Part shown: piece after piece, positions 8,478 to 58,805 of the stretch
How the letters are laid out: each line of letters opens with the position of its first letter
Position numbering within the stretch: the first letter of the stretch is position 1
Source of the DNA: Hydrogenophaga pseudoflava
Lineage (GTDB): Bacteria > Pseudomonadota > Gammaproteobacteria > Burkholderiales > Burkholderiaceae_C
DNA length: 64,000 nucleotides
Assembly (NCBI RefSeq): GCF_031020795.1
Contig: NZ_JAVHJP010000003.1
Location: 55,408 to 119,407 of the forward strand
Reading direction: 5' to 3'
Position numbers and translations under genes: made by a program
The notes under the pieces: model-generated
Database searches by the model: none
Seen by the model: the letters and a program-made list of their open reading frames with translations, nothing else
Told to the model about the DNA's origin: nothing

Positions 8478-9944
8478 TCAGGAGCTCTCCGCCGGGACCG
8501 AAGCCTTGAACAGCGCCGGCACCTTCTTGCGGGATTTGATGTTGGGCGACAGGCGGCTGGTGGCGGCCGGTTTGGCCGCCGCCTCCCAGGACGGCTTGGC
8601 GTCTTCCGCCAGCGCGGGCTCGTAGGGCTTGTCGAACAGCGGATCCGCGGGCGCCCGCACCGGACGCGAAATGCGGCGGTCTTCGCGCGGCTCACGAGGC
8701 TCGCGCGCTTCGCGGGCCTGACGGATGTCGCGGCGCCCTTCATCGTCGCCCTCGCGCCAGGCGCGCTGGCCGTCGTTGAAGCGGCCGGCCGGCCTGCGGT
8801 CTGCCTCCAGCTCCAGTGCTTCGAGCTCGAACTTCTTGCCGATCAGCTTTTCGATGTCGGCCATCAGGCGCGTGTCCTTGCCGCTGACAAAGGACACCGC
8901 CAGGCCCGAGGCGCCGGCGCGGCCCGTGCGGCCGATGCGGTGCACATAGTCCTCGGCGTTGAACGGGATGTCGAAGTTGAACACCGCCGGCACGTCCTTG
9001 ATGTCCAGGCCACGCGCGGCCACATCGGTGCAGACCAGCAGATCGACTTCACCCTTCTTGAAGGCGTCCAGCGCCTTCAGGCGCTCGTCCTGGCTCTTGT
9101 CGCCGTGCAGCGCCGTGGTCTTCAGGCCCTCGCGCTCCAGTGAACGGGCCAGGCGCGCGCAGCCGAGCTTGCTGTTGACGAAAACGAAGGCCTGCGTAAC
9201 CCCACGCTCCTTGACGATCTGCTTGAGCGTCTGGCGCTTGTCGTCGTCGTCCACGCGGTAGAAATGCTGCTCCACCGTGGATGCGGTGGCGTTGGAGCGG
9301 GCCACCTCGATGGTGATCGGGTCCTGCAGGTAGCTGCTGGCCAGGCGCTTGATCTCGGGCGAGAAGGTGGCCGAGAACAGCAGCGTGGTGCGCGTCTTCG
9401 GCAGGTAGGAAAGGATGCGCTGCAGGTCCGGCAGGAAGCCGATGTCCAGCATGCGGTCGGCCTCGTCGAGCACCACGTACTCGACCTGGTTGAGCACGCA
9501 GTTCTTGGCCTCGATGTGGTCCAGCAGCCGGCCCGGCGTGGCCACCAGCACCTCGACACCCTTTTTGAGTTCGATGGTCTGCGGCTTCATGTCCATGCCG
9601 CCAAACACCACCGTGCTGCGCAGCTGGGTGTACTTGGCGTACTGCTTGATCTGGTCGGCCACCTGGTCGGCCAGCTCGCGCGTGGGCAGCAGCACCAGGG
9701 CGCGCACCGGGTGCCGGGCGGGTGAGGTGGATGCGTTTTCGTGCTTGAGCATGCGCTGCAGCAGCGGCAGCGAGAAGGCGGCGGTCTTGCCGGTGCCTGT
9801 CTGGGCAGCGCCCATCACGTCGCGCCCCTGGAGCACCACCGGAATGGCCTGTGCCTGGATGGGCGTCATGCTCTCGTAGCCCATTTCCGCGATGGCACGG
9901 GCGAGGTTGGGCGAGAGCTGGAGTTCGGAAAAGGATTGGGTCAT
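8478..9944 (-). CDS. DEAD-box RNA helicase, RhlE-like
   Basis: This 488-residue ATP-dependent RNA helicase carries all family motifs: the Q motif PIQAQAIP, Walker A AQTGTGKT, PTRELA, TPGRLLD, DEAD within VLDEADRML, SAT, ARGLDIKD and HRIGRTGRAG. The C-terminal 110 residues are basic, low-complexity sequence with repeated arginine/glutamate/proline, typical of RhlE and distinct from the RNA-binding domains of DbpA or CsdA. RhlE-type helicases act in ribosome assembly and mRNA decay. It stands alone, 69 bases downstream of a zinc peptidase gene on the same strand. Confidence 0.93.
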   Translation of the reverse strand: MTQSFSELQLSPNLARAIAEMGYESMTPIQAQAIPVVLQGRDVMGAAQTGTGKTAAFSLPLLQRMLKHENASTSPARHPVRALVLLPTRELADQVADQIKQYAKYTQLRSTVVFGGMDMKPQTIELKKGVEVLVATPGRLLDHIEAKNCVLNQVEYVVLDEADRMLDIGFLPDLQRILSYLPKTRTTLLFSATFSPEIKRLASSYLQDPITIEVARSNATASTVEQHFYRVDDDDKRQTLKQIVKERGVTQAFVFVNSKLGCARLARSLEREGLKTTALHGDKSQDERLKALDAFKKGEVDLLVCTDVAARGLDIKDVPAVFNFDIPFNAEDYVHRIGRTGRAGASGLAVSFVSGKDTRLMADIEKLIGKKFELEALELEADRRPAGRFNDGQRAWREGDDEGRRDIRQAREAREPREPREDRRISRPVRAPADPLFDKPYEPALAEDAKPSWEAAAKPAATSRLSPNIKSRKKVPALFKASVPAESS

Positions 9945-46955: not shown

Positions 46956-47789
46956 TCAGGCCCAGTGCGCCTTGAAGTCCTGCGCGTACTGTTCGAAGCG
47001 GATCGGCGCCTTCCCGGTGATGCGCTGCACGCCGTCGGTGGTGCGCTCGGCAAAGCCGGCCTTGAAGGCGCCCAGGATCACCAGGAGGAACTCGGTGTAG
47101 TCCGCCGGCAGGCCCGCGCCCAGCAGGCCCTGGCGCATCGCGTCCTCGGGAATGTCGGTGTAGCCGATGGGTCGGCCCGCCGCCTGGGACAGGATGGCCG
47201 CCACCTGGGTGTGGTCCAGCGCCTCGCTGCCGGTCAGGTCGTGCGCGGCGTTGACGAAGTCGTCGGACGACAGCAGCCTGGCGGCCACGGCGGCGATGTC
47301 GCGCGTGTCGATGAAGCTGCCTTTGGCGGCGCCCACCGGCAGGAAGATCTGGCCCTGGGTCTGGATGCCGTGCAGCCAGAAGGTGTGGAAGTTCTGCATG
47401 AACCAGTTGGGGCGGATCACGTTCCAGGCCAGGCCCGAGCGCTCCAGGTGCAGCTCGGCGCGGCGCAGCGGGATGCTGTCGTCGGCGTTGGCGCCCATCG
47501 CGGAGAGCAGCAGCACCTTGCGCACGCCAGCGGCCTTGGCGGCGTCAATGGCGGGGATCAGCAGCTCGTGCTGGTTGGCGAAGCCGGGGGGGCACATCAG
47601 AAACAGCTGGTCGACGCCGGTCAGCGCAGCGGCCAAGCCTTCGCCAGTGGCGAGGTTGACCTGCACCTCACCGGCTTGGGAGGGGGTGCGGCTGGTGGCG
47701 CGGCGCACGGTCTGGCCCTGGGCCGACAGCAGGTCAACAAGGGCGGAACCGATCTGGCCGCTGGCGCCGGTCACGAGGGTGGTGGTCAT
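46956..47789 (-). CDS. NmrA-like NAD(P)-binding protein
   Basis: This 277-residue atypical short-chain dehydrogenase has the Rossmann motif GASGQIGS at residues 8-15 and an NmrA-type fold (KVLLLSAMGANAD, RPNWFMQNF, GSFIDTRDIAAVAARLL). Relatives include QOR2-type NAD(P)H:quinone reductases and redox sensors such as NmrA and HSCARG. The catalytic Tyr-Lys of classical SDRs is not obvious. The ATG at 47787-47789 follows GGAGA. It is divergent from an AraC regulator which probably controls it. Confidence 0.85.
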   Translation of the reverse strand: MTTTLVTGASGQIGSALVDLLSAQGQTVRRATSRTPSQAGEVQVNLATGEGLAAALTGVDQLFLMCPPGFANQHELLIPAIDAAKAAGVRKVLLLSAMGANADDSIPLRRAELHLERSGLAWNVIRPNWFMQNFHTFWLHGIQTQGQIFLPVGAAKGSFIDTRDIAAVAARLLSSDDFVNAAHDLTGSEALDHTQVAAILSQAAGRPIGYTDIPEDAMRQGLLGAGLPADYTEFLLVILGAFKAGFAERTTDGVQRITGKAPIRFEQYAQDFKAHWA

Positions 47790-47853
47790 CTGGAATCTCC
47801 TGTGGGTGTTGCGAAGGCCTCCAGTGTGTTCCCGATCCGAAAGAACTGGAATG

Positions 47854-47874
47854 CATGAAATTCCGCCATTCATG
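47854..47874. promoter_or_regulatory. Inverted repeat in the NmrA-AraC divergent region
   Basis: CATGAA-N9-TTCATG is a perfect inverted repeat in the 111-base gap between the two start codons; it overlaps a second one, GGAAT-N7-ATTCC (47848-47864). Either could be the binding site of the AraC-type regulator at 47901. Confidence 0.45.
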
Positions 47875-47900
47875 TCTGATAGTACATAGAATCTCCTCTC

Positions 47901-48878
47901 ATGGACATACTCTCCGACATCCTCCATGTCGCCGGGTTGCGGCGCCGCCTGCTCGACCTGCACGCACTCAGCCCCGAAGCCGCGCTGCGCTTTCCTTGCG
48001 ACCGCAGCTTCGGCCTGCACGCGGTCACGCGGGGCCGGGCCTTCGTGCACGCACCCAACCTGGACGAGCCGCTGGAGCTGCAGACCGGCGACCTGGTGCT
48101 CATGGCACGCGGCTGCGTGCACCTGCTCTCGCTGGACCGCGAGCCGCCGGCGCGCAGCACCACGGTGCCGATCGCGCGCTTTGTGGGCGGAGGCCTGGCC
48201 GATACCGCCCCGGACAGCCGGGCGCCCCACGACCCCGCCGCGCCCACCCAGGTCATCAGCGCCGCCTACCAGCTCTGGCACGACCCGCTGCACCCTTTCC
48301 TGCGCAGCCTGCCGCCGTGGTTCGTGGTGCGCGGCCACAGCCTGCCGCAGCTGTCGGCCGTGCCGCTCACGCTCGGTCTGCTGGACCGTGAGCTGGGCGA
48401 CCAGGCGCTGGGCGCGACCTCGGCCACCCACGGTCTGCTGGACGCGCTGTTCGCCTTCGCGCTGCGCGAGATCGCCGCGCGCGAGAACCCCGGCGTGCCC
48501 GGCTGGACCCACGCCATCGCCGACCGGCCGATCCGCCAGGTGCTGACCCTCATGCACGGCAACCTCGGCCACGGCTGGACGCTGGACGAGCTGGGCCAGC
48601 AGGTGGGCCTGTCGCGTTCGGCGCTGGCCGAGCGCTTCCGCAGTGCCATGGGCGACACGCCGCTGAACCACCTGCGCAGCCTGCGCATGCAGAAGGCCAT
48701 GCAGCTGCTGGCCGAGACACGGCAGACGCTGGAGCACGTGGCGCAGGCCGTGGGCTACCAGGACGCGTTCGGCTTTTCCAAGGTGTTCAAGCGCACCACC
48801 GGCCAGTCGCCGCGCCAGTTCCGCGATCAGGACGCGGCCGACCGTCAGACCGAGTGGCGCATCCAGGAGGCCTCCTGA
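47901..48878 (+). CDS. AraC-family regulator with cupin domain
   Basis: This 325-residue regulator has an N-terminal cupin-6 type sensor domain (about 1-190) and a C-terminal AraC helix-turn-helix pair (about 215-310, with WTLDELGQQVGLSRSALAERFRSAMG and VAQAVGYQDAFGFSKVFKRTTG). Proteins of this kind often sit beside an oxidoreductase gene and respond to small electrophiles or quinones. Divergent from the NmrA-like gene. The start is the ATG at 47901, with TCTCCTCTC upstream and no good Shine-Dalgarno sequence. Confidence 0.87.
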   Translation: MDILSDILHVAGLRRRLLDLHALSPEAALRFPCDRSFGLHAVTRGRAFVHAPNLDEPLELQTGDLVLMARGCVHLLSLDREPPARSTTVPIARFVGGGLADTAPDSRAPHDPAAPTQVISAAYQLWHDPLHPFLRSLPPWFVVRGHSLPQLSAVPLTLGLLDRELGDQALGATSATHGLLDALFAFALREIAARENPGVPGWTHAIADRPIRQVLTLMHGNLGHGWTLDELGQQVGLSRSALAERFRSAMGDTPLNHLRSLRMQKAMQLLAETRQTLEHVAQAVGYQDAFGFSKVFKRTTGQSPRQFRDQDAADRQTEWRIQEAS

Positions 48879-48886
48879 ACACATCG

Positions 48887-48904
48887 GCGGCGGAGCGTGG
48901 GGGC
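48887..48904. repeat. Fragment of the comamonad-type repeat
   Basis: GCGGCGGAGCGTGGGGGC here is identical to 43988-44005. It lies 8 bases after the AraC-cupin stop codon. Confidence 0.6.
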
Positions 48905-48973
48905 TACAACCCGTAGGGGTACAGTGTCGGCCTTTGCGCCCAGGCGCTGTTCGGCTCCCACGCCCTCCACACC

Positions 48974-49312
48974 ATGACCCTGCCCCGCTGCCCGAAATGC
49001 CAGTCCGAGTTCACCTACGAGGATGGTGCGCTCTACATCTGCCCCGAATGTGCCCATGAGTGGAACAAGGCCGGCGATGACGAACCCGCAGAAGAAGCCA
49101 GGGTCTGGAAGGACGCGTTCGGCAATCTGCTGGCCGACGGCGACAGCGTGACACTGGTCAAGGACCTCAAGCTCAAGGGCTCGTCGGCCGTCATCAAGGT
49201 CGGCACCAAGGTCAAGAACATCCGCCTGGTCGAGGGCGACCACGACATCGACTGCAAAATCGAGGGCTTTGGTGCGATGCAGCTCAAGTCCGAGTTCGTG
49301 AAGAAGAGCTGA
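48974..49312 (+). CDS. PhnA/YjdM family zinc-ribbon protein
   Basis: This 112-residue protein has an N-terminal zinc ribbon ([21 protein letters not shown]) and a C-terminal SH3-like PhnA domain ([28 protein letters not shown]). The family is linked by name to alkylphosphonate use but is not a phosphonate enzyme; its role is unclear. It is followed after 8 bases by a DUF167 gene, and the two are probably co-transcribed. Confidence 0.93.
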
Positions 49313-49320
49313 TCTCCCCC

Positions 49321-49587
49321 ATGGGCCGCATCGTCGTCTACTGCCAGCCCGGCGCCAAGCAGACCCAGTGCGTCGGCCTGCACGACGGCAAGCCCAAGAT
49401 CCAGCTGAAGGCGCCACCGGTCGACGGTGCGGCCAACAAGGCCCTGATCGGCTTTCTCTCCGAGGTGTTCGGCGTACCCAGGTCGGCCATCAGCATCGAG
49501 CTCGGCGCGTCCGGCCGCACCAAGCGGGTGGAGGTGGCCGGGGTGGACGACGGGGAACTCAGCCGCCGGCTGCTCGCGGCGGCATGA
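49321..49587 (+). CDS. DUF167 (YggU) family protein
   Basis: This 88-residue protein matches the DUF167/YggU family (KPKIQLKAPPVDGAANKALIGFLSEVFGV; an alpha/beta fold of unknown function). It is short but of normal family length. Its last 29 bases overlap the convergent cytosine deaminase-like gene; both reading frames are well conserved in character there, so the overlap seems real. Confidence 0.88.
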   Translation: MGRIVVYCQPGAKQTQCVGLHDGKPKIQLKAPPVDGAANKALIGFLSEVFGVPRSAISIELGASGRTKRVEVAGVDDGELSRRLLAAA

Positions 49588-50848
49588 ACGCGGTGCGGCC
49601 CGGCCGGCCGGGCAGCGAGAGCTGCGCCTCGGTGGGCGCGGTCTGCGCCAGCAGCTTGCCCTTGCGCCACACCTTCAGCCGCGTCGCGCGCAGGCGGATC
49701 GCCTCCACCGGGTCGCGCGCCTGCAGCAGCACGAAGCTCGCGTCCTGCCCCGCGTCAATGCCATAGCCTGTCAGGCCCATCACCCTCGCCGCGTTCACCG
49801 TCACGGCGTCGAAGCACTGGCGCATGCCGGCCTGGCTGGTCATCTGCGCCACGTGCAGGCCCATGTGCGCCACCTCCAGCATGTCGCCGCTGCCCAGCGA
49901 GTACCAGGGGTCCATCACGCAGTCGTGGCCGAAGGCCACCGTGACGCCGGCCGCCATCAGCTCGGGCACGCGCGTCATGCCGCGGCGTTTGGGGTAGGTG
50001 TCGTGCCGGCCCTGCAGCGTGATGTTGATCAGCGGGTTGGCCACCGCGCTCACGCCGGCCTCGGCGATCAGCGGGATCAGCTTGCTCACGTAGTAGTTGT
50101 CCATGCTGTGCATGGAGGTGAGGTGCGAGCCGTTGACCCGGCCCTGCAGGCCCAGACGCTGCGTCTCGAAGGCCAGGGTCTCGATGTGGCGGGACAGCGG
50201 GTCGTCGCTCTCGTCGCAGTGCATGTCCACCGGCAGACCACGTTCGGCCGCGAGTTCGCAGAGCAGCTTCACGCTGGCCGCGCCATCGGCCATGGTGCGT
50301 TCGAAGTGCGGGATGCCGCCGACCACGTCCACGCCGAGGTCCAGCGCGCGCTTGAGCTTGTCCAGTCCGCCGGGCGAACGCAGCACACCATCCTGCGGGA
50401 ACGCCACCAGCTGCAGGTCCAGGTAAGGCGCCACGCGCTTCTTCACCTCCAGCATCGCCCGCACCGGCAGCAGGCTGGGGTCGCTGGTGTCCACGTGGCT
50501 GCGGATCGCCAGCAGGCCTTTGGCCGCCGCCCAGTCGCAGTAGGCCAGCGCGCGGTCGACCAGGGCCTCTTCGGTCAGCAGCGGCTTGAGCTCGCCCCAG
50601 AGCGCGATGCCTTCGAGCAGGGTGCCGCTCTGGTTCACGCGCGGCAGGCCATAGCTGAGCGTCGCGTCCATGTGGAAGTGGGGGTCGCAGAACGGCGGAC
50701 TCAGCAGCAGGCCGGTGGCGTCCACGGTCTCGTGCGCGGGCGCCTGCAGGCCCTCGGTCACCTCCACGATGCGACCGCCCTGCACCGCGACCGACATGCC
50801 GGTACGGCCGTCGGGCAGGCTGGCGTGGGTGATCAGCAGGTCGAGCAT
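49559..50848 (-). CDS. Cytosine deaminase-like amidohydrolase (CodA type)
   Basis: This 429-residue metal-dependent hydrolase has the HxH motif DPHFHMDA (57-59), MHCDESDD, SHLTSMHS and GHDCVMDPWY, in the order seen in CodA. CodA converts cytosine to uracil. As last gene of an operon with uracil phosphoribosyltransferase and two URC-type genes, a role feeding uracil into that pathway is likely. Other CodA-like hydrolases act on triazines or creatinine, so the exact substrate is open. It is cytosolic and follows the LysE gene by 12 bases. Confidence 0.85.
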   Translation of the reverse strand: MLDLLITHASLPDGRTGMSVAVQGGRIVEVTEGLQAPAHETVDATGLLLSPPFCDPHFHMDATLSYGLPRVNQSGTLLEGIALWGELKPLLTEEALVDRALAYCDWAAAKGLLAIRSHVDTSDPSLLPVRAMLEVKKRVAPYLDLQLVAFPQDGVLRSPGGLDKLKRALDLGVDVVGGIPHFERTMADGAASVKLLCELAAERGLPVDMHCDESDDPLSRHIETLAFETQRLGLQGRVNGSHLTSMHSMDNYYVSKLIPLIAEAGVSAVANPLINITLQGRHDTYPKRRGMTRVPELMAAGVTVAFGHDCVMDPWYSLGSGDMLEVAHMGLHVAQMTSQAGMRQCFDAVTVNAARVMGLTGYGIDAGQDASFVLLQARDPVEAIRLRATRLKVWRKGKLLAQTAPTEAQLSLPGRPGRTAFMPPRAAGG

Positions 50849-50860
50849 GTCGGTCTTCCG

Positions 50861-51499
50861 TCAGGCCGCATGGCGGCGATAGCTGGCCAGCAGCAGGGCC
50901 AGCAGGCCCATGCCCACCGCGCAGCCCCGGTGGAGCCAGCGCAGGCCGGCCTGCGACAGCCAGCGCACCGCCTGCCGCCCGGCCAGCGCGTAGGCCACCA
51001 TCACCAGCGCGTCGATGGTCACGAACAGAGCGCCCAGCAGGGCGTACTGCGGCGCCAGCGCCTGCACCGAGTCCACGAACTGCGGCAGGAAGGCGGCGAA
51101 GAACAGCAGCGCCTTGGGGTTGGAGAGGGCCACCGTCAGACTGCGGGTGAAGGCCGCGCGGCCCTGCACCTCTCGCCCCGGCACCTGGGCCAGCGTGGCC
51201 TGCACATCGGCCACCGGGCTGCGCCATAGCTGCACCGCCAGCCACAGCAGGTAGAGCACGCCGACCGTGCGCACGGCATCGAACAGCCAGGCCGAGGCCA
51301 GCATCAACGAACCCAGGCCGATGGCGACGACGGAGATCACCGCTGCACTTCCCAGCGTCGCACCGCCGATGCCCCAGGCCGCGCGCCGCAGGCCACCTCC
51401 CATGCCGTTGGACAGCGCCAGCAGCATGGTGGGGCCGGGGATCACCGCCAGCGCGAGCGCAGCGGTGGCGAACATCAGCAAGGTCTGGATGGTGGGCAT
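50861..51499 (-). CDS. LysE/RhtB-family exporter
   Basis: This 212-residue membrane protein has six hydrophobic segments and the family opening ALAVIPGPTMLLALSNGMGGG. Characterised relatives export amino acids (lysine, homoserine, threonine, leucine). Here it lies inside a pyrimidine-degradation operon (4 bases after upp, 12 bases before the deaminase), so it may export a breakdown product such as a beta-amino acid or ureido acid. That role is inference. Confidence 0.87.
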   Translation of the reverse strand: MPTIQTLLMFATAALALAVIPGPTMLLALSNGMGGGLRRAAWGIGGATLGSAAVISVVAIGLGSLMLASAWLFDAVRTVGVLYLLWLAVQLWRSPVADVQATLAQVPGREVQGRAAFTRSLTVALSNPKALLFFAAFLPQFVDSVQALAPQYALLGALFVTIDALVMVAYALAGRQAVRWLSQAGLRWLHRGCAVGMGLLALLLASYRRHAA

Positions 51500-51503
51500 G
51501 GCT

Positions 51504-52133
51504 TCATTGTGTGCCGAAGATGCGGTCGCCCGCGTCGCCCAGACCGGGCAGGATGTAGCCGTGCTCGTTGAGCTGACGGTCGATGGCCGCGGTGTAGATG
51601 GGCACGTCCGGGTGGGCTTTCTCCATCGCGGCCAGGCCTTCGGGGCAAGTCAGCAGGCAGACGAACTTGATGGACTTCGGGTTGCACTCCTTGAGCCGGT
51701 CGATGGCGGCGATGGCCGAGTGGCCGGTGGCCAGCATCGGGTCCACCACGATGGCGTCGCGCTCGTGCATCTCGGTCGGCATCTTGAAGTAGTACTCCAC
51801 CGCGGTCAGGGTCTTGGGGTCGCGGTAGAGGCCGATGTGGCCCACGCGCGCGCCCGGCACCACGCTGAGCATGCCGTCCAGGATGCCGTTGCCCGCGCGC
51901 AGGATGGAGACGAAGACCAGCTTCTTGCCGTCGATGACCTGGCCGGTCATGGTCTCCAGCGGCGTTTCCACCAACAGGTCCTGCATGGGCATGTCGCGCG
52001 TGACCTCGTAGGTCATGAGCATGGACAGCTCGTTCAGCAGCCGGCGGAAGCTGTTGGTGCTGGCCGTCCTGCTGCGCATGAGCGTGAGCTTGTGCTGCAC
52101 CAGCGGGTGGTTCACGACGTGGACGTTGCTCAT
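51504..52133 (-). CDS. upp: Uracil phosphoribosyltransferase
   Basis: This 209-residue cytosolic enzyme makes UMP from uracil and PRPP. The PRPP-binding loop [11 protein letters not shown] and the C-terminal uracil-binding stretch [15 protein letters not shown]-like segment (seen as [18 protein letters not shown]) are present, and the length matches bacterial Upp. In the yeast URC pathway the corresponding activity (URC6) is needed for uracil breakdown, so in this operon Upp may start catabolism rather than salvage alone. Confidence 0.95.
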
Positions 52134-52167
52134 GGTGGGGGCCTTGTGTGAAGGTGATGGAAAGGAA

Positions 52168-53406
52168 TCAGAAAACCGTGCCGTCGCTGACGATATTCAG
52201 AGGTGGCAGACCGCCGCGCAGGCGCTGCGCCAGCACACGGCCCGCGGCCCAGGTGCCGCCTTCGAGCACGCAGGCCAGCGGCATGACCTGTTCGCTCAGA
52301 CCCAGCTCGGCGCGCACCAGGGGCGCGAGCTCGTCCAACAGCGCCACGGTGAGTGCACGCCATTCGACGATGAAGGCATCGCCCGCCTGCCAGGGGTGCG
52401 TGGCCCAGCCGGCCGGCAGGGGCTCCAGCACACCGGCGTCGATCAGCAGGCCGCCGTTGCGGTATTCCGGCAGGCCGGTCAGCGCGTCGAGCCCTGTCAC
52501 GCGAAGGCCCCCCCACTCGAAGGGTTCGAGCAGCGAGTAGGTGAGCCACTGCGAGAGCTTGTGGAACGGCATCCAGCCCGCCGTCGGCCCCTCGCCCGCC
52601 ACGGCGGGGTGGCGCCAGCAGTCGCCCAGCGGCTCGCCGGCTATGGTGTTCTGCGCGGGCCAGATGCCGGACAGTGCGCCCAGCAGCAGCACCAGGATGT
52701 CGTGCGCAGCCACCGCGCCGCCCCCCTGCGCGGTCAGTGCATCGAACAGGCCTCCGGGCCTCCCCTGCGGCCCAAACACCGCCGGCTGCGTGCCCAGCAC
52801 CTCGCCCAGCCGGCGCAGCAGCGCGGCCCGGCCGTCCAGCCCCACCAGGGGGTTGGCGGGGCCGACCTGGAACGCCTGCGCCAGCCGGCCGGCTGTGACC
52901 GCCCGAAGACCGGCCGCGTCCACACGGAACGGCTGCTTCGAATCGCTGGAGAACAGGCCCTGCATGAACGCGTGAAAGCTCGCCACCCCCAGTCCTTCGG
53001 AGCGCGCGAAGCGCTGGCCGCTGGCGGTTTCCAGGTAGGACCAGTCGGCGCCCGCCCCGGCGTCCAGCAGCACGCTGACCAGCACCAGGTCGATCTGTGC
53101 CCGGGCACGCTCGGCGGCTGTCACCGCACCCAGGGCGTGGTCGAGCATGGCACGCCGGTCCACGCCGCCGGCCTCGAAGTGCCGCCAGCGGCTGTGGTAC
53201 GGAATGCGGCCGTCGGGGTAGCGCTCGCGCGTGAGCGCGGCCACGGTGCGCGCGGCACCCACGAGTGCGGCATCGTGCACCACAAAGTGCTCCGAAGCGC
53301 CTGCGCGTGCCCGCGCCAGCAACTGCCGCGCACGGGAACGGACGGCCGCGGTGGAACGCAGCACACGGGCCGCACCGGTGGGGGTGGACGGGTCGGGCAC
53401 CGTCAT
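52168..53406 (-). CDS. DUF1688 protein, URC4-like (uracil catabolism)
   Basis: This 412-residue protein matches the DUF1688 family, whose founding members are the yeast uracil-catabolism protein URC4 and Schizosaccharomyces/Aspergillus relatives. No catalytic motif of a known enzyme class is visible; the sequence is rich in conserved tryptophan and glycine segments such as [29 protein letters not shown] and [15 protein letters not shown]. Its ATG overlaps the stop of the URC1-like gene (ATGA). Biochemical role unknown. The assignment rests on family recognition plus the URC1 and Upp neighbours. Confidence 0.85.
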
Positions 53407-54695
53407 GCCCCCAGCGCCCGGCCCTTGGCCTTTTTCAGTTCTTCGGCATCGGGCACGGCACCGGGGGTGAAGTAGCCGGCCGCCATCTTGGCGTCCATCT
53501 CCACCCGCGCGTCGGCCGGGATCAGCTCGTCGGGGATGTTGATGCGCTCGCCCACCTCGATGCCCGAGCCGGTGATGGCGTCGTACTTCATGTTGCTCAT
53601 CGACACCAGCCGGTGGATCTTCGTGATGCCCAGCCAGTGCAGCACGTCGGGCATGAGCTCCTGGAAGCGCATGTCCTGCACGCCGGCCACGCATTCGGTG
53701 CGCGCGAAGTACTGGTCGGCCGTGTCGCCGCCCACCTGGCGCTTGCGCGCGTTGTAGACCAGGAACTTGGTCACCTCGCCCAGCGCGCGGCCCTCCTTGC
53801 GCGAGTAGGCCACCAGGCCCACACCACCCCGTTGCGCGCCCTGGATGCATTCCTCGATGGCGTGCGTCAGGTAGGGCCGGCAGGTGCAGATGTCGGAGCC
53901 GAACACGTCCGAGCCGTTGCACTCGTCGTGCACGCGCGCGGTCAGGGTCACGGCCGGATTGGCCAGGTCGCGCGGGTGGCCGAAGATGTAGAGCGTCTGC
54001 CCGCCGATGGGGGGAAGGAAGACTTCGAGGTCCGAGCGCGTGACCAGTTCCGGGTACATGCCGCCGGTCTCCTCGAACAGCACGCGGCGCAGGTCGGCCT
54101 CGCTGCAGCCGAAGCGTTTCGCCACGCCGGGCAGGTACCACACCGGCTCCACCGCCACCTTGGTCACCACGGCCGCGCCGCCGGCCGTGAGCAGCTGGCC
54201 GTCGGGTTTCAGGCGCCCTTTCTGCAGCGCGTCGATCACCTCCGGCAGCAGCACGTGGGCCTTGGTGATGGCGATCGTCGGGCGGATGTCGTAGCCGGCG
54301 GCCAGTTCCTGCGCATAGACGTCGGCCACCTCGGCGCCCCAGGGGTCGAGGCTGACGATCTTGCCCGGCTCGGCCCACTGCGGGTAGGGGCCGACCACGT
54401 CGGTGGGTGCGGTGTTGGTCAGGTCGGCCCTGTGCTCCCGTTTGAGGGCGCCGGCCGCCACCGCCAGCGCACGGTAGACGCTGTAGCTGCCACTGTGGGT
54501 GCCGATCACGTTGCGGTGCGCGCGGTTGGTGGTGGTGCCCACCACCGGCCCGCGTTCGCGCGCTGTGGCCGCGCCCCACTGGATCGGCAGGGCGCCGAAG
54601 CCGCCCGAGTGCGAGGTGAGCCGGATGTGGCGCGGGTGCGGCGTCTGGGCCAAGGCCGGGGCCTCGCCGGATGGCATGGGAACGTCTGCGGACAT
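53403..54695 (-). CDS. GTP cyclohydrolase II paralogue, URC1-like
   Basis: This 430-residue protein has a C-terminal GTP cyclohydrolase II-like domain with the zinc cysteines in HDECNGSDVFGSDICTCR, and YSRKEGRALGEVTKF in place of the canonical RQEGRGIG segment. The N-terminal 200 residues are a separate domain. It is longer than RibA, lacks a RibB domain, and has substitutions at nucleotide-binding positions, all features of URC1 proteins. In yeast URC1 is required for uracil degradation, probably opening a uracil-derived ring. First gene of the five-gene operon. Start at 54693-54695; a riboflavin role is less likely because RibA is normally shorter. Confidence 0.87.
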   Translation of the reverse strand: MSADVPMPSGEAPALAQTPHPRHIRLTSHSGGFGALPIQWGAATARERGPVVGTTTNRAHRNVIGTHSGSYSVYRALAVAAGALKREHRADLTNTAPTDVVGPYPQWAEPGKIVSLDPWGAEVADVYAQELAAGYDIRPTIAITKAHVLLPEVIDALQKGRLKPDGQLLTAGGAAVVTKVAVEPVWYLPGVAKRFGCSEADLRRVLFEETGGMYPELVTRSDLEVFLPPIGGQTLYIFGHPRDLANPAVTLTARVHDECNGSDVFGSDICTCRPYLTHAIEECIQGAQRGGVGLVAYSRKEGRALGEVTKFLVYNARKRQVGGDTADQYFARTECVAGVQDMRFQELMPDVLHWLGITKIHRLVSMSNMKYDAITGSGIEVGERINIPDELIPADARVEMDAKMAAGYFTPGAVPDAEELKKAKGRALGA

Positions 54696-54854
54696 GGACT
54701 GGTCCTGTGGTGAAAGCCCCTGGGGGCGAACCGGCGGCAGTGGCGCGAGGCCGCTGCCGTCACCCGGTGTCCGTTGTAGCAAGGCGGATGCCAGCCGTCC
54801 ACCCGCTGGCCCTCCGTACAATCCCGGCCCTCCCCTTCCCCGACCTCTTTTTTC

Positions 54855-55148
54855 ATGCACTACGCCGTCTCACACCACAAGCTCAAGCTCATCCTCAGCG
54901 GCGCCGGCCTCAAGTCCGGCGACGCCGCCGGCATCGACAAGCTCTTTGGCGGCAAGGACGGCTACTACTGGTTCGGCACCCTGCGCGACATGTGCCCCGA
55001 GGGCAAGACCCTGACCTGGGACAACCAGTACGCGCTGGTGGCGGCCATCCAGGCGCACGAGGACGCCAGTGCGGCCGAGGACGAGATGCCGCCTGAGAAG
55101 CCGACGCCGGCCCACATCGCGGCCATCTGCAAGCTCCTGGCGATCTGA
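54855..55148 (+). CDS. Small conserved-looking protein of unknown function
   Basis: This 97-residue soluble protein (opening MHYAVSHHKLKLILSGAGLK) is not a family I can name. It has a compact, well-balanced composition with aromatic clusters (DGYYWFGTLRDMCPEGK) and no signal or membrane segment. It stands 2 bases before a ketopantoate reductase-like gene on the same strand, so co-expression is likely. Coding is supported by the downstream spacing and by the amino acid composition, unlike the arginine-rich shadows in other frames. Confidence 0.7.
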   Translation: MHYAVSHHKLKLILSGAGLKSGDAAGIDKLFGGKDGYYWFGTLRDMCPEGKTLTWDNQYALVAAIQAHEDASAAEDEMPPEKPTPAHIAAICKLLAI

Positions 55149-55150
55149 GC

Positions 55151-56071
55151 ATGAACGCGCCGACCCACCCGCTCCAGGTCGCCGTGCTGGGTGCCGGCGC
55201 GGTCGGCTGTTACTACGGCGGCATGCTGGCGCGCGCCGGCCACCGCGTCACCCTCGTCGGCCGGCAGCAACACGTGCAGGTGTTCGACGCGCAGGGCCTG
55301 CGCATGCAGACCCAGACCTTCGACGAAACGGTGAAAGTCGCGGCCAGCACCGAGGCCTCGGCCGTGGCCGGCGCCGACCTGGTGCTGTTCGCGGTCAAGT
55401 CGCCCGACACCGAACACGCGGGCGCGCAGATGCGCGAGCACCTCCAACCCGGCGCCCTGGTGCTGTGCCTGCAGAACGGCGTGGACAACGCGGACCGCCT
55501 GCGCGCCGTGCTGCCGGGCGCGGCGGTGGCCGCCGCCGTGGTCTATGTGGCCACCGAGATGGCCGGCCCCGGCCATCTGCGCCACCACGGGCGCGGCGAA
55601 CTCGTCATCGAACCGTCACCCGCCAGCCATGCGGTGGCCCAGGCCCTGGGCGCCGCGGGCGTGCCCACCGAGGTGAGCGACAACGTGCGCGGCGCGCTCT
55701 GGGCCAAGCTCATCCTCAACTGCGCCTACAACGCGCTGTCGGCCGTGGGCCGCATCGCCTACGGCGAACTGGTGCAGCGGCCCGGGGTGCAGGACATCAT
55801 GTGCGACGTGGTGGCCGAATGCCGCGCGGTGGCCGCGGCCGACGGCGTGACCCTGCCCGGCGACGTGGACGCGGCCGTGCGCCGAATCGCCGAGACCATG
55901 CCGACGCAGTACTCGTCCACCGCCCAGGACCTGATGCGCGGCAAACCCAGCGAGATCGACCACCTCAACGGCTACGTGCTGCGGCGCGGCCAGGCCCTGG
56001 GCGTACCCACGCCGGCCAACCGGGTGTTGTGGGCCGTCGTGAAGCTGGTCGAATCCGGCGCCGCGCGCTGA
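55151..56071 (+). CDS. Ketopantoate reductase-like protein (PanE/ApbA family)
   Basis: This 306-residue protein has the N-terminal NADPH motif GAGAVGCYYGG (residues 13-23) and a C-terminal helical domain with the catalytic lysine region WAKLILNCAYNALSA and the final substrate-side segment KPSEIDHLNGYVLRRG. PanE reduces 2-dehydropantoate to pantoate in coenzyme A synthesis. Bacteria often carry several paralogues of unknown substrate, so I give no gene symbol. Length is normal. Confidence 0.88.
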   Translation: MNAPTHPLQVAVLGAGAVGCYYGGMLARAGHRVTLVGRQQHVQVFDAQGLRMQTQTFDETVKVAASTEASAVAGADLVLFAVKSPDTEHAGAQMREHLQPGALVLCLQNGVDNADRLRAVLPGAAVAAAVVYVATEMAGPGHLRHHGRGELVIEPSPASHAVAQALGAAGVPTEVSDNVRGALWAKLILNCAYNALSAVGRIAYGELVQRPGVQDIMCDVVAECRAVAAADGVTLPGDVDAAVRRIAETMPTQYSSTAQDLMRGKPSEIDHLNGYVLRRGQALGVPTPANRVLWAVVKLVESGAAR

Positions 56072-56201
56072 AATAACCCGTCTGCAAACGTCAATTCTGA
56101 CGGGGGCCCCCCAGGGGTTTCGAGCCACATCCTGTACAACGGGCTCCCTGCTATCAAGACCACCCCGACCACGGCGGTGTCACCGCCCCCACTCCTTCAT
56201 C

Positions 56202-58805
56202 GTGTCTTCTGGTTTGCGCAACAGTCTTCGGCTTCAGCTGGTGCTGCTCATCGGTGGGCTGGCCGTGGCCAGTGCAGCGGGCTATGTGCTACTGACCACG
56301 CACCTGGTGCAAAAGCAGATCGAAGCCGACCAGTTCATGCTGCAGCGCATCCTGGTCACGCGCATGGCCTCCCAGCTCGACCAGGACATGAACGCGCGCA
56401 CCACCGAACTGCGCTTCATTGCGAGCCTGGACCGGCTGCGCGACCCGCAACGGGCCCCGCAGGACAAGCAGGCCTTGCTGCTGACCAAGAAAGCCATCTA
56501 CCCCTTCTACGCCTGGATCGGCATCACCGACACACAAGGCCGCATCGTGGCGAGCACCGAGCCGCGCATCAATGGCGCGGACGTGTCGCAGCGCTCGTGG
56601 TTCCTCGGAGGCCGGCAGCGACTGCACCAGGAGGACATCCACGACGCGGTGCTGCTGGGCAAGCTGCTGCCACCGCCGGAGCTGGATGAGCTGCCGCTGC
56701 GGCTGATGGACATCTCCCTGCCCCTGCACGACCGGGAAGGCCGGTTCATCGGCGTGCTGGCCACCCACCTCAGTCTGGACTGGGCCTACCAGCTGCGCCA
56801 CCAGCTGCTGGACCAGCTGGACATTCAGGGGCTGGAAATGCTGCTGGTCAACCGGGACGGCGAAGTCATCGTGGGCAGCCCCACCCTGCCCGCCCGCTCC
56901 GCGACCAACCTGTCGTCGCTCGCGGTGCTCAGAAGCACCAAGGCGGGCCGGGTGGCCACCGCCATCGAAACCTGGCCCGATGGCCGGCGCTACCTCACCG
57001 CAGCCGCTCCGGCTCTGGGCACCCACCCTTTTCCCGGCCTGGGCTGGGCGGTGCTGGTCCGGCTGGACGAAGCGAGCGCCTTTGCAGACGCACGGCGCCT
57101 GGGCTGGCGGGCGCTCGCCGTGGGCCTGGTGTCTGCGCTGCTGTTCTCCTGGGTCATCTGGTGGGCCATGGGCCGCAAGCTGCGACCCATGGAGCGCCTG
57201 AGCCAGGCGGTGGCCGACCTGGACGTCGGCCGCCCGCTGGAGACCTTGCCGGAAGTGGAGGGTGACGGCGAGGTCGCCGTGTTCGCCCGCTCCATGGCCC
57301 GCCTGGTGAATGCGCTGGGCGAAAGCCGCGAGCGCTTCCAGATGCTGTTCGACCATGCCCCCGTGGCGATGGCCTTCATGGCTGCAGACGGCAAGGTGCT
57401 GCTGCTCAACGCCCGCTTCACGCAGCTGCTGGGCTACGAAGCCCGGCACGTGCCCCACGTCGACCAGTGGTTCGTGCAGGCCTTCCCGGAGGGGCCGGCC
57501 CGGGAAGCGGCCCGCGAACGCTGGCAACGGGCTTTGCCACACATCGGCAAATCGCCCCTGGCGCTCCCGCCCACCGAATATCCGTTGCGCTGCTTTGACG
57601 GCAGCGTCCGCATCGTCGAGGCTGGCGGCATTGCCCTGCCCGACGGCATGCTGGTGTCCTTTCAGGACCTCACCGAACGCCGCCGCGCCGAAGCCGGCCT
57701 GCGCCTGTGGGCCGAGGCCTTCGAGCACAGCGAGGTCGGGCTGGTGATTTCCGACGTGAGGACCGAAACCCTCATCGCAGCCAATCCCGCCTTCGCCCAG
57801 CAGCGGGGCTACACCGCCCAGGAGCTGACTGGCCTGCCGGTGTCGCGCCTGTACCCCGAGCGCGCGATGAGCAACCTGTACGCCGCCATGGAAAAGGCGT
57901 ACGAAGACGGCCACATCGTCTTCGAGACCGAGCACATCGCCCGCGACGGGCGCATCTTCCCGGTGCTCATCGACCTCACGGTGCTGCGCGATCCCAACGG
58001 CCAACCCGCGCGCCGTGTGTCCTATGTGCAGGACCTGACCGAGCGCGAACACGCCGCGCGGGAAATCCGCCGCCTCAACACGGAGCTGGAGCAGCGCGTG
58101 GTCGAGCGCACCGCCGAGCTCAGTGCAGCCAACCGGGAACTCAATTCTTTCGCCGCCGCGGTCACCCACGACCTGCGCGCGCCGCTGCGCACGGTGAACG
58201 GGTTCGTCCAGATCCTGCGGGACGAGTTCGCGGAACCGCTTGGCGACGAAGGGCGGACTCACCTGCAGCGCATTCAGGAAGGCACGCGCCGCATGAGCGA
58301 ACTCATCGAAGGGTTGCTGGCCCTCTCCCGCCACACCAACAAGCCGCTGGAGCGGACCCGGGTCGACCTCTCCGCCATTGCCAGTCGGCGCCTGGCGGAG
58401 CTGGCCGCCTCAGAACCGGCGCGGCGGGTGGTGGTGGACGTCGAGCCCGGCCTGGAGGCCGACTGCGACGCCGCCCTGGCCGAAGCCCTGCTGGTCAACC
58501 TGCTGGACAACGCCTGGAAATACAGCGCCAAGACGGCGCAGGCGCACATCGGCTTTCGCCGCGACACGGTCGGCGGACTGACCGGTTTCTGCGTGAGCGA
58601 CAACGGTGCCGGCTTCGACATGGCCAAGGCTGGCCACCTGTTCGAACCGTTCCAGCGCCTGCACCGCCCCAGCGAATTCCAAGGCACCGGGGTGGGCCTG
58701 GCGACGGTGCGGCGCATCGTCGACCGGCACGGTGGCCGCATCACCGTGCAGGCGGCGCCCGGTCAGGGTGCCCGCTTCTGCTTCACGCTGCGGGCGGAGA
58801 CCTGA
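56202..58805 (+). CDS. Orphan sensor histidine kinase with Cache, HAMP and two PAS domains
   Basis: This 867-residue inner-membrane kinase has helix one near residues 10-30, a periplasmic double-Cache sensor (about 35-285), helix two near 300-325, a HAMP-like segment, two PAS domains (about 380-500 and 510-630), a coiled coil and a kinase core with His656 in VTHDLRAPLRT, N box NLLDNAWKYS, DNGAGFD and GTGVGLATV. The start is a GTG at 56202. No response regulator gene is adjacent, so its partner must be elsewhere. Ligand unknown. Confidence 0.88.
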   Translation: MSSGLRNSLRLQLVLLIGGLAVASAAGYVLLTTHLVQKQIEADQFMLQRILVTRMASQLDQDMNARTTELRFIASLDRLRDPQRAPQDKQALLLTKKAIYPFYAWIGITDTQGRIVASTEPRINGADVSQRSWFLGGRQRLHQEDIHDAVLLGKLLPPPELDELPLRLMDISLPLHDREGRFIGVLATHLSLDWAYQLRHQLLDQLDIQGLEMLLVNRDGEVIVGSPTLPARSATNLSSLAVLRSTKAGRVATAIETWPDGRRYLTAAAPALGTHPFPGLGWAVLVRLDEASAFADARRLGWRALAVGLVSALLFSWVIWWAMGRKLRPMERLSQAVADLDVGRPLETLPEVEGDGEVAVFARSMARLVNALGESRERFQMLFDHAPVAMAFMAADGKVLLLNARFTQLLGYEARHVPHVDQWFVQAFPEGPAREAARERWQRALPHIGKSPLALPPTEYPLRCFDGSVRIVEAGGIALPDGMLVSFQDLTERRRAEAGLRLWAEAFEHSEVGLVISDVRTETLIAANPAFAQQRGYTAQELTGLPVSRLYPERAMSNLYAAMEKAYEDGHIVFETEHIARDGRIFPVLIDLTVLRDPNGQPARRVSYVQDLTEREHAAREIRRLNTELEQRVVERTAELSAANRELNSFAAAVTHDLRAPLRTVNGFVQILRDEFAEPLGDEGRTHLQRIQEGTRRMSELIEGLLALSRHTNKPLERTRVDLSAIASRRLAELAASEPARRVVVDVEPGLEADCDAALAEALLVNLLDNAWKYSAKTAQAHIGFRRDTVGGLTGFCVSDNGAGFDMAKAGHLFEPFQRLHRPSEFQGTGVGLATVRRIVDRHGGRITVQAAPGQGARFCFTLRAET

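Follow-up and report, generated by a model that had tools for sequence, protein, structure and literature searches.

A probable URC operon for uracil breakdown, with entry from cytosine, in Hydrogenophaga pseudoflava, and a predicted Qng1-like fold for its URC4 protein

A stretch of 64,000 nucleotides from Hydrogenophaga pseudoflava (assembly GCF_031020795.1, contig NZ_JAVHJP010000003.1, positions 55,408 to 119,407; hereafter the window) carries five genes on its minus strand that are best explained, at a probability of about 0.82, as an operon for uracil catabolism of the URC type with a cytosine entry step. The operon is of a known kind, the bacterial URC operon, and provides a good new example of it. 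What is new here is a confidently predicted model of URC4, a DUF1688 protein, with the fold of Qng1/DUF2419, which gives a direct and testable candidate mechanism. Linkage of URC1 and URC4 with a uracil phosphoribosyltransferase (UPRT) in bacteria was reportedly described already by Andersen and colleagues in 2008.

Results

Five genes on one strand

The whole operon extends from 54695 to 49559 on the minus strand and comprises, from its upstream end:

53403..54695, minus strand: URC1, a nucleotide cyclohydrolase resembling GTP cyclohydrolase II (GCHII), with an N-terminal PF12471 domain (NF005536, PF12471 and PF00925 matches)
52168..53406, minus strand: URC4, DUF1688, a putative nucleotide N-glycosylase (PF07958 at 489 bits, and predicted fold)
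51504..52133, minus strand: UPRT, upp/URC6-like, converting uracil and phosphoribosyl pyrophosphate to uridine monophosphate (UMP) (UPRTase PF14681, upp TIGR01091)
50861..51499, minus strand: LysE/RhtB-type membrane protein, accessory (LysE PF01810 at 94 bits)
49559..50848, minus strand: CodA-type cytosine deaminase (NF005748 at 802 bits)

Read from the DNA, the stop codon of URC1 and the start codon of URC4 overlap by four bases (ATGA), and the gaps that follow measure 34 bases between URC4 and UPRT, 4 between UPRT and LysE, and 12 between LysE and CodA. These junctions and the curated models bear out the five genes, their common strand, their positions and their identities as given in an earlier note on this DNA; its reading of the cluster as a URC operon is likewise upheld, by the family matches and by a conserved gene order. 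UPRT reaches 253 bits with PF14681 and 274 bits with TIGR01091 (cut-off 208), and matches solved UPRTs with E-values down to 3.8e-84. The DUF1688 family (PF07958) has a single match in the window's genome (5.0 Mb in 22 contigs). A search of 47000-57000 with Rfam at gathering thresholds gave no match.

Conservation of the URC1-URC4-UPRT order

The loci compared here are the best 80 of at least 572 confirmed relatives, obtained from 588 candidates in a URC4 alignment scan of genome contigs, and thus represent the closer relatives: by their record titles, 45 are proteobacterial besides Marinobacterium, 34 actinobacterial and one Marinobacterium, with some loosely named metagenome-assembled genomes among them. 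Counts for these named loci and for the genus are kept apart, and apparent same-genome pairs occur (L018/G338, with identical LysE; L016/G351; L031/G652). URC1 lies directly upstream of URC4 in all 80 named loci. UPRT follows URC4 within 300 bases in 75 of them and at a distance of 2.3-3.1 kb in three; it was not found in the remaining two, whose contigs end 53 and 2060 bases past URC4. With adjacency in 80/80 and 75/80 loci, the association of URC1, URC4 and UPRT is not due to chance. The survey of neighbours in operons with DUF1688 and GCHII-like genes that the earlier note had suggested thus returns URC1 and UPRT at these frequencies, CodA in 29 of 34 proteobacterial loci and LysE in 2 of 81 (the window plus the 80), the latter two being treated below.

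DUF1688 itself is patchily distributed: of 300 genomes from the order, 11 have a match over the cut-off, and of 67 from the genus, 17. In a tree of URC1 (66 rows), the 32 actinobacterial rows stand on one side of a branch with a support of 100/99 from a bootstrap that had not fully settled. Under a midpoint root, which serves the drawing only, they fall among proteobacterial rows. One old transfer would fit this placement, without being demonstrated by it.

Additional neighbour families were drawn from genes called with the five known genes masked, each family being named from one representative. A BMP-type substrate-binding protein recurs in 26 of the 81 loci, an ATP-binding cassette (ABC) ATPase in 24, BPD_transp_2 permeases in 22 and 23, and a PNP_UDP phosphorylase in 14. 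These importer and phosphorylase families mostly stand in a row downstream of UPRT, in Comamonadaceae. Since CodA, the BMP importer and the phosphorylase recur beside URC, the URC route is probably supplied with nucleosides and cytosine as well as with uracil. Within the genus, the importer set is present in 3 of the 16 URC loci other than the window's (3/17 with the window included), and the space between UPRT and CodA differs among loci: it is empty, or holds LysE, the importer set, or a HIT-like protein.

The HIT-like protein, named by eye, stands at 7902-8363 of L142 (G312), at the place where the window has LysE. We also note a gene pair after UPRT in L024, L027, L071, L076 and L094 (representative L024:13193-14338), one member having no Pfam match and the other being HupE/UreJ-like; the pair is possibly tied to the nickel supply of urease.

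A glycosylase-like fold predicted for URC4

The AlphaFold2 model of URC4 (75 sequences) has a mean predicted local distance difference test score (pLDDT) of 95.1. Foldseek searches with this model returned 87 PDB matches at E ≤10, and the 11 at E ≤0.001 are all DUF2419/Qng1 chains, with a best E-value of 8.3e-10 and TM-scores of 0.55-0.62 by query length. In VIA-align 2, the model and DUF2419/Qng1 superpose with Z 27.0-27.8 over 308-322 residues at a root-mean-square deviation (rmsd) of 2.8-3.0. The next fold is an archaeal 8-oxoguanine DNA glycosylase at Z 11.2, and DNA glycosylases span Z 5.9-11.2. The predicted URC4 model therefore shares its overall fold with the queuosine-5'-monophosphate hydrolase Qng1/DUF2419 (7UK3, 7U91 and others), whereas the two differ in sequence (14-23% identity), in Pfam family and, as we expect, in substrate.

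Sequence comparison gives weaker matches to the same family. PF10343 (Q_salvage) is listed at E ≤10 for 18 of the 75 URC4 members, with a best E-value of 4e-6, and is second only to DUF1688. When 30 URC4 proteins were scanned singly, PF10343 appeared at E ≤1 in 10. A separate PF10343 search found none in 398 genomes of the phylum and none in 14 controls either, and is thus uninformative on absence. Because it has no PF10343 match over the cut-off, the window's URC4 is filed as sharing the fold of Qng1 and not as Qng1 itself.

In the URC4 alignment, K283 is near-invariant and E314 invariant. The mutated residues in the PDB titles of Qng1/DUF2419 entries are K199 and D231, and K283 and E314 may, as a guess from motifs, be their counterparts.

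According to the title of a reference in PMC11130926, Qng1 frees queuine from the nucleoside 5'-monophosphate; an excerpt of PMC9406330 describes a DUF2419 protein that turned queuosine into queuine in vitro and likens it to DNA glycosylases. Yeast URC4 is placed at the step from ribosylurea to urea in an excerpt of PMC7530994, and is called a putative ribosyl-urea degrading enzyme in one of PMC8709784. Within open-licence PMC literature we found nothing joining DUF1688/URC4 with DUF2419/Qng1, nor, in the excerpts examined, a mechanism for URC4/DUF1688. Together, the predicted fold, the weak Q_salvage matches, the activity of Qng1 and the yeast URC4 step point to URC4 being an N-glycosylase, and a Qng1-like fold would explain the release of urea, as a base cut from a sugar phosphate. 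We consider it likely that URC4 is distantly related to Qng1 and to the helix-hairpin-helix DNA glycosylases, and that it cleaves the N-glycosidic bond of 5-phosphoribosylurea. Uracil catabolism would then have borrowed a base-excision-type glycosylase, and would recycle ribose 5-phosphate.

A shared fold shows no function; the protein might accordingly have kept a helix-hairpin-helix glycosylase-like fold by descent and serve another activity, such as that of a ribosylurea amidase or a nucleotide-binding regulator. We regard this as unlikely given the extent of the match (308-322 residues at an rmsd of about 3, with Z 27 against 11 for other folds) and given that the yeast step from ribosylurea to urea, as placed in the excerpt of PMC7530994, is an N-glycosidic cleavage.

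Probable entry of cytosine via CodA

CodA scores 802 bits with NF005748 (cut-off 438) and 431.6 bits with the other cytosine deaminase model, PRK09230, below the cut-off of 483. Solved cytosine deaminases match it at 372-373 bits. Relative to E. coli-type CodA (1K6W and others), nearly the whole chain matches and the metal-site stretches (HxH, HCDE, SH and GHD) are aligned; the difference lies in the subfamily, NF005748 of NCBIfam, and in the unreached PRK09230 cut-off.

A CodA of at least 55% identity lies downstream on the same strand in 29 of the 34 proteobacterial loci (Marinobacterium apart) that have at least 9.9 kb of downstream flank; in three of these 29 (L027, L057 and L072) the fetched stretch ends inside the gene. 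CodA is found in 0 of 29 actinobacterial loci with a flank of at least 9.9 kb, and was not found in Marinobacterium. In the genus, a same-strand CodA follows in 14 of the 16 further URC loci, or 15/17 with the window, in one case (L154) after 4.4 kb of other genes and in another (L149) only in pieces. The recurrence of CodA downstream makes the earlier proposal that cytosine feeds in plausible, and this putative entry into the URC route is well supported by comparison.

At L149 (G358), CodA is present at 8557-9271 as two short pieces after LysE and is probably broken or truncated; in the same locus, the matches to URC1, URC4, UPRT and LysE run over almost their full length.

LysE accompanies nucleoside importers as well as URC operons

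The LysE protein matches PF01810 at 94 bits; the RhtB/LeuE-type models all stay below their cut-offs and no equivalog cut-off is reached. Proteins at least 76% identical to it are present in 6 of the 67 genus genomes, the window's included, and in five of these the gene lies in a URC operon. LysE is thus found in 4 of the 16 further genus URC loci (5/17 with the window), and among the 81 loci only in the window and L018. The other genus genome with a LysE of at least 76%, G318 (7% contaminated), has no DUF1688 and carries the order BmpA-ABC-permease-permease-LysE-CodA.

The family search for LysE covered 399 genomes, of which 27 had a match at E ≤1e-38, with at most seven best candidates scored per genome. 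G646, G577, G736 and G544 carry the order UPRT-BmpA-(phosphorylase)-ABC-permease-permease-LysE. In two of them CodA is the following gene, in one it lies 2.7 kb further on, and in one it was not found in the fetched stretch. In all five non-URC operons, G318 included, LysE follows an importer permease, and CodA adjoins in three. DUF1688 is present in none of these five genomes, and PreA, of the reductive route, is over the cut-off in all five. In the LysE tree, the operon-linked proteins fall into a single clade (11 rows, two of them from the same genome; support 98/93), inside which the URC-linked rows stand together, beside the others, with weak support (87/68). Unlinked homologues of about 50-67% identity (L191-L200) come from ten tested genomes that all carry DUF1688.

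With the other genes acting as proposed, LysE could export a URC product, whether malonic semialdehyde/3-hydroxypropionate, urea or a derived amino acid such as beta-alanine. The close position of the gene, 4 bases from UPRT and 12 from CodA, is consistent with this, as are the DUF1688 genes of the ten genomes with unlinked homologues, the URC or PreA route in each operon-linked genome, and some uracil-degrading route in 20 of 20 genomes tested. We nevertheless find such a role doubtful. The same clade occurs in operons of five genomes without DUF1688, 12 of 17 genus URC operons do without LysE, and all but two of the 81 loci lack it. The ten unlinked cases, moreover, span just five genera (four cases from one), lie beside unrelated genes, and are limited to homologues of about 50-67% identity.

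A URC-specific exporter is therefore unsupported: the gene occurs in non-URC importer operons and is absent from most URC operons. Because it is present in 5 of 17 genus URC operons and also in the importer operons of five PreA-bearing genomes without DUF1688, LysE is weak evidence on URC end products, and the hint that the earlier note had seen in it was not borne out. From these comparisons we conclude that the role of LysE probably lies in pyrimidine uptake or deamination, and that the gene was retained when the degradation module differed.

Two observations concern the surroundings of LysE. In L158 (G318:C163, 4744-12856), the importer-LysE-CodA operon without URC stands beside a PanE-type gene that, judged by eye, resembles the one in the flank of the window's operon; the arrangement would fit loss of the URC module, or its never having been inserted there. 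In L191-L200, genes close to the homologue resemble those for RnfB, PhaC or propionyl-CoA carboxylase, again as judged by eye.

URC1 is distinct from RibA

URC1 matches NF005536 at 805 bits, PF12471 at 271 bits and PF00925 at about 57-59 bits. Against the solved chains 7EEV and 7EJ3 it scores about 815 bits, across 417 residues. Residues C259, C270, C272, Y314, D341 and R343 are invariant in 66 aligned sequences and align with C54, C65, C67, Y105, D126 and R128 of E. coli GCHII, which are the zinc ligands and catalytic residues of that enzyme. GCHII releases formate and pyrophosphate. The chains 7EEV and 7EJ3 are labelled GTP cyclohydrolase II; they are presumably the UTP cyclohydrolase chains of Zhang and colleagues (ACS Catal, 2021), whose work, going by its title, reportedly concerns a "UTP cyclohydrolase" and is cited for URC. 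The earlier statement that URC chemistry is poorly defined is thus out of date.

That this gene is a RibA paralogue of riboflavin or deazaguanine-type biosynthesis, in a cluster that is not catabolic, is highly improbable: although a GTP_cyclohydro2 domain is present and both NCBIfam and the PDB name the family 'GTP cyclohydrolase II', the ribA model TIGR00505 gives 46 bits against a cut-off of 205.85 (NF005536, 805 bits), a second GCHII-domain gene in the genome (G000:C1:65461, presumed RibA) matches PF00925 better (123 versus 59 bits), a profile search gives the structure of E. coli RibA 38 bits and 7EJ3 883, and the URC4 and UPRT neighbours are kept across Proteobacteria and Actinobacteria. 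A riboflavin role for 53403-54695 is rejected by the ribA model, the second GCHII gene and the structure scores, and the separation of URC1 from RibA drawn in the earlier note holds.

Other uracil-degrading routes and urea breakdown

The earlier note had named the reductive (PydABC) and Rut pathways as other routes. In the window's genome, neither PreA (NF006183; best 50 bits versus 335) nor RutA (TIGR03612; best 53 bits versus 498) is over the cut-off. Of the genus genomes with URC, 17 in all, one (G315) has PreA and one (G305) RutA over the cut-off. In the other 50 genus genomes no RutA match passes; PreA passes in G314, G318 and G364, and G344 and G341 hold partial PreA matches that fall short of the cut-off. 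The window's genome encodes a urease alpha subunit at G000:C16:230692; urease is over the cut-off in 61 of 67 genus genomes, and its presence is therefore non-discriminating.

Flanking and antisense features

At 47901-49312 on the plus strand of the window lie two genes, one for an AraC-type regulator and one of the PhnA/YjdM type, that run convergently towards the 3' end of the operon. The same pair is found near CodA in L142. At 52015-53475, also on the plus strand, the strand opposite DUF1688 has long open stretches, as it does at the same place in other loci; in 49 of the 81 loci, a gene caller based on codon-position GC preferred antisense frames there.

Discussion

In the pathway we propose, the operon would act in the following steps: (I) CodA would convert cytosine to uracil and ammonia, and (II) UPRT would convert uracil to UMP, both as suggested by strong family matches; (III) cellular kinases would raise UMP to uridine triphosphate (UTP); (IV) URC1, by GCHII-type zinc chemistry, would cut a three-carbon piece from the uracil ring of UTP, giving malonic semialdehyde (3-hydroxypropionate once reduced), pyrophosphate and 5-phosphoribosylurea; (V) URC4 would hydrolyse the N-glycosidic bond of 5-phosphoribosylurea to urea and ribose 5-phosphate, an activity suggested by its confidently predicted fold; and (VI) urease, encoded elsewhere in the genome, would free nitrogen from urea. 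Step IV is modelled on the GCHII reaction, together with what the title of the cited work on UTP cyclohydrolase implies. LysE would be an accessory transporter, associated with genes for pyrimidine uptake and not with URC chemistry.

Several points weigh against this interpretation. The activities of the pathway are predicted from genes and models, and the choice of UTP over UMP as the substrate of URC1 comes from publication titles. The predicted model of URC1 is poor (pLDDT 58) and was used in no fold search. For URC4, 57 of the 75 proteins, the window's included, have no listed PF10343 match at E 10, and just one of the 30 scanned singly (L071, 27.0 bits versus 25) passes the cut-off. When the PDB was searched by sequence, with profiles or individual proteins of URC4, no Qng1 chain came up: some searches had no match at all, and the others had matches at E-values of about 0.2-1.2 (RAI2, a KORA-domain protein, synapsin, DARPins and others), which we judged to be chance. 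URC and the PreA or RutA routes are not exclusive, since one genus URC genome has PreA and one RutA. Finally, the operon contains no regulator gene, and no promoter- or terminator-like site was found in 49300-55200, where shuffled sequences averaged 0.1 and 1.5, so that the result is little informative.

Among known systems, the URC pathway of Lachancea (Saccharomyces) kluyveri (URC1, URC4 and URC6) and its bacterial homologues share with the window the same three core proteins and the same inferred products, urea and a three-carbon acid. The window's genome differs in probably using urease, whereas the yeast uses urea amidolyase, and its operon adds CodA and LysE. In Schizosaccharomyces pombe, an excerpt of PMC2174524 describes a uracil-induced cluster, urg1-urg2-urg3, which likewise groups a GCHII-family protein, a UPRT and a DUF1688 protein; that system is eukaryotic, and CodA and LysE are not mentioned in the excerpt.

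URC is one of few pathways that open the pyrimidine ring without prior reduction or oxidation. The fold-based mechanism proposed for URC4 would turn a domain of unknown function, fungal as well as bacterial, into the subject of a one-enzyme assay. The operon comparison shows that the LysE gene should not be taken as evidence for an exported URC product. Genes for pyrimidine uptake and deamination occur with either the URC or the reductive route, a pattern that aids the annotation of many soil and water bacteria.

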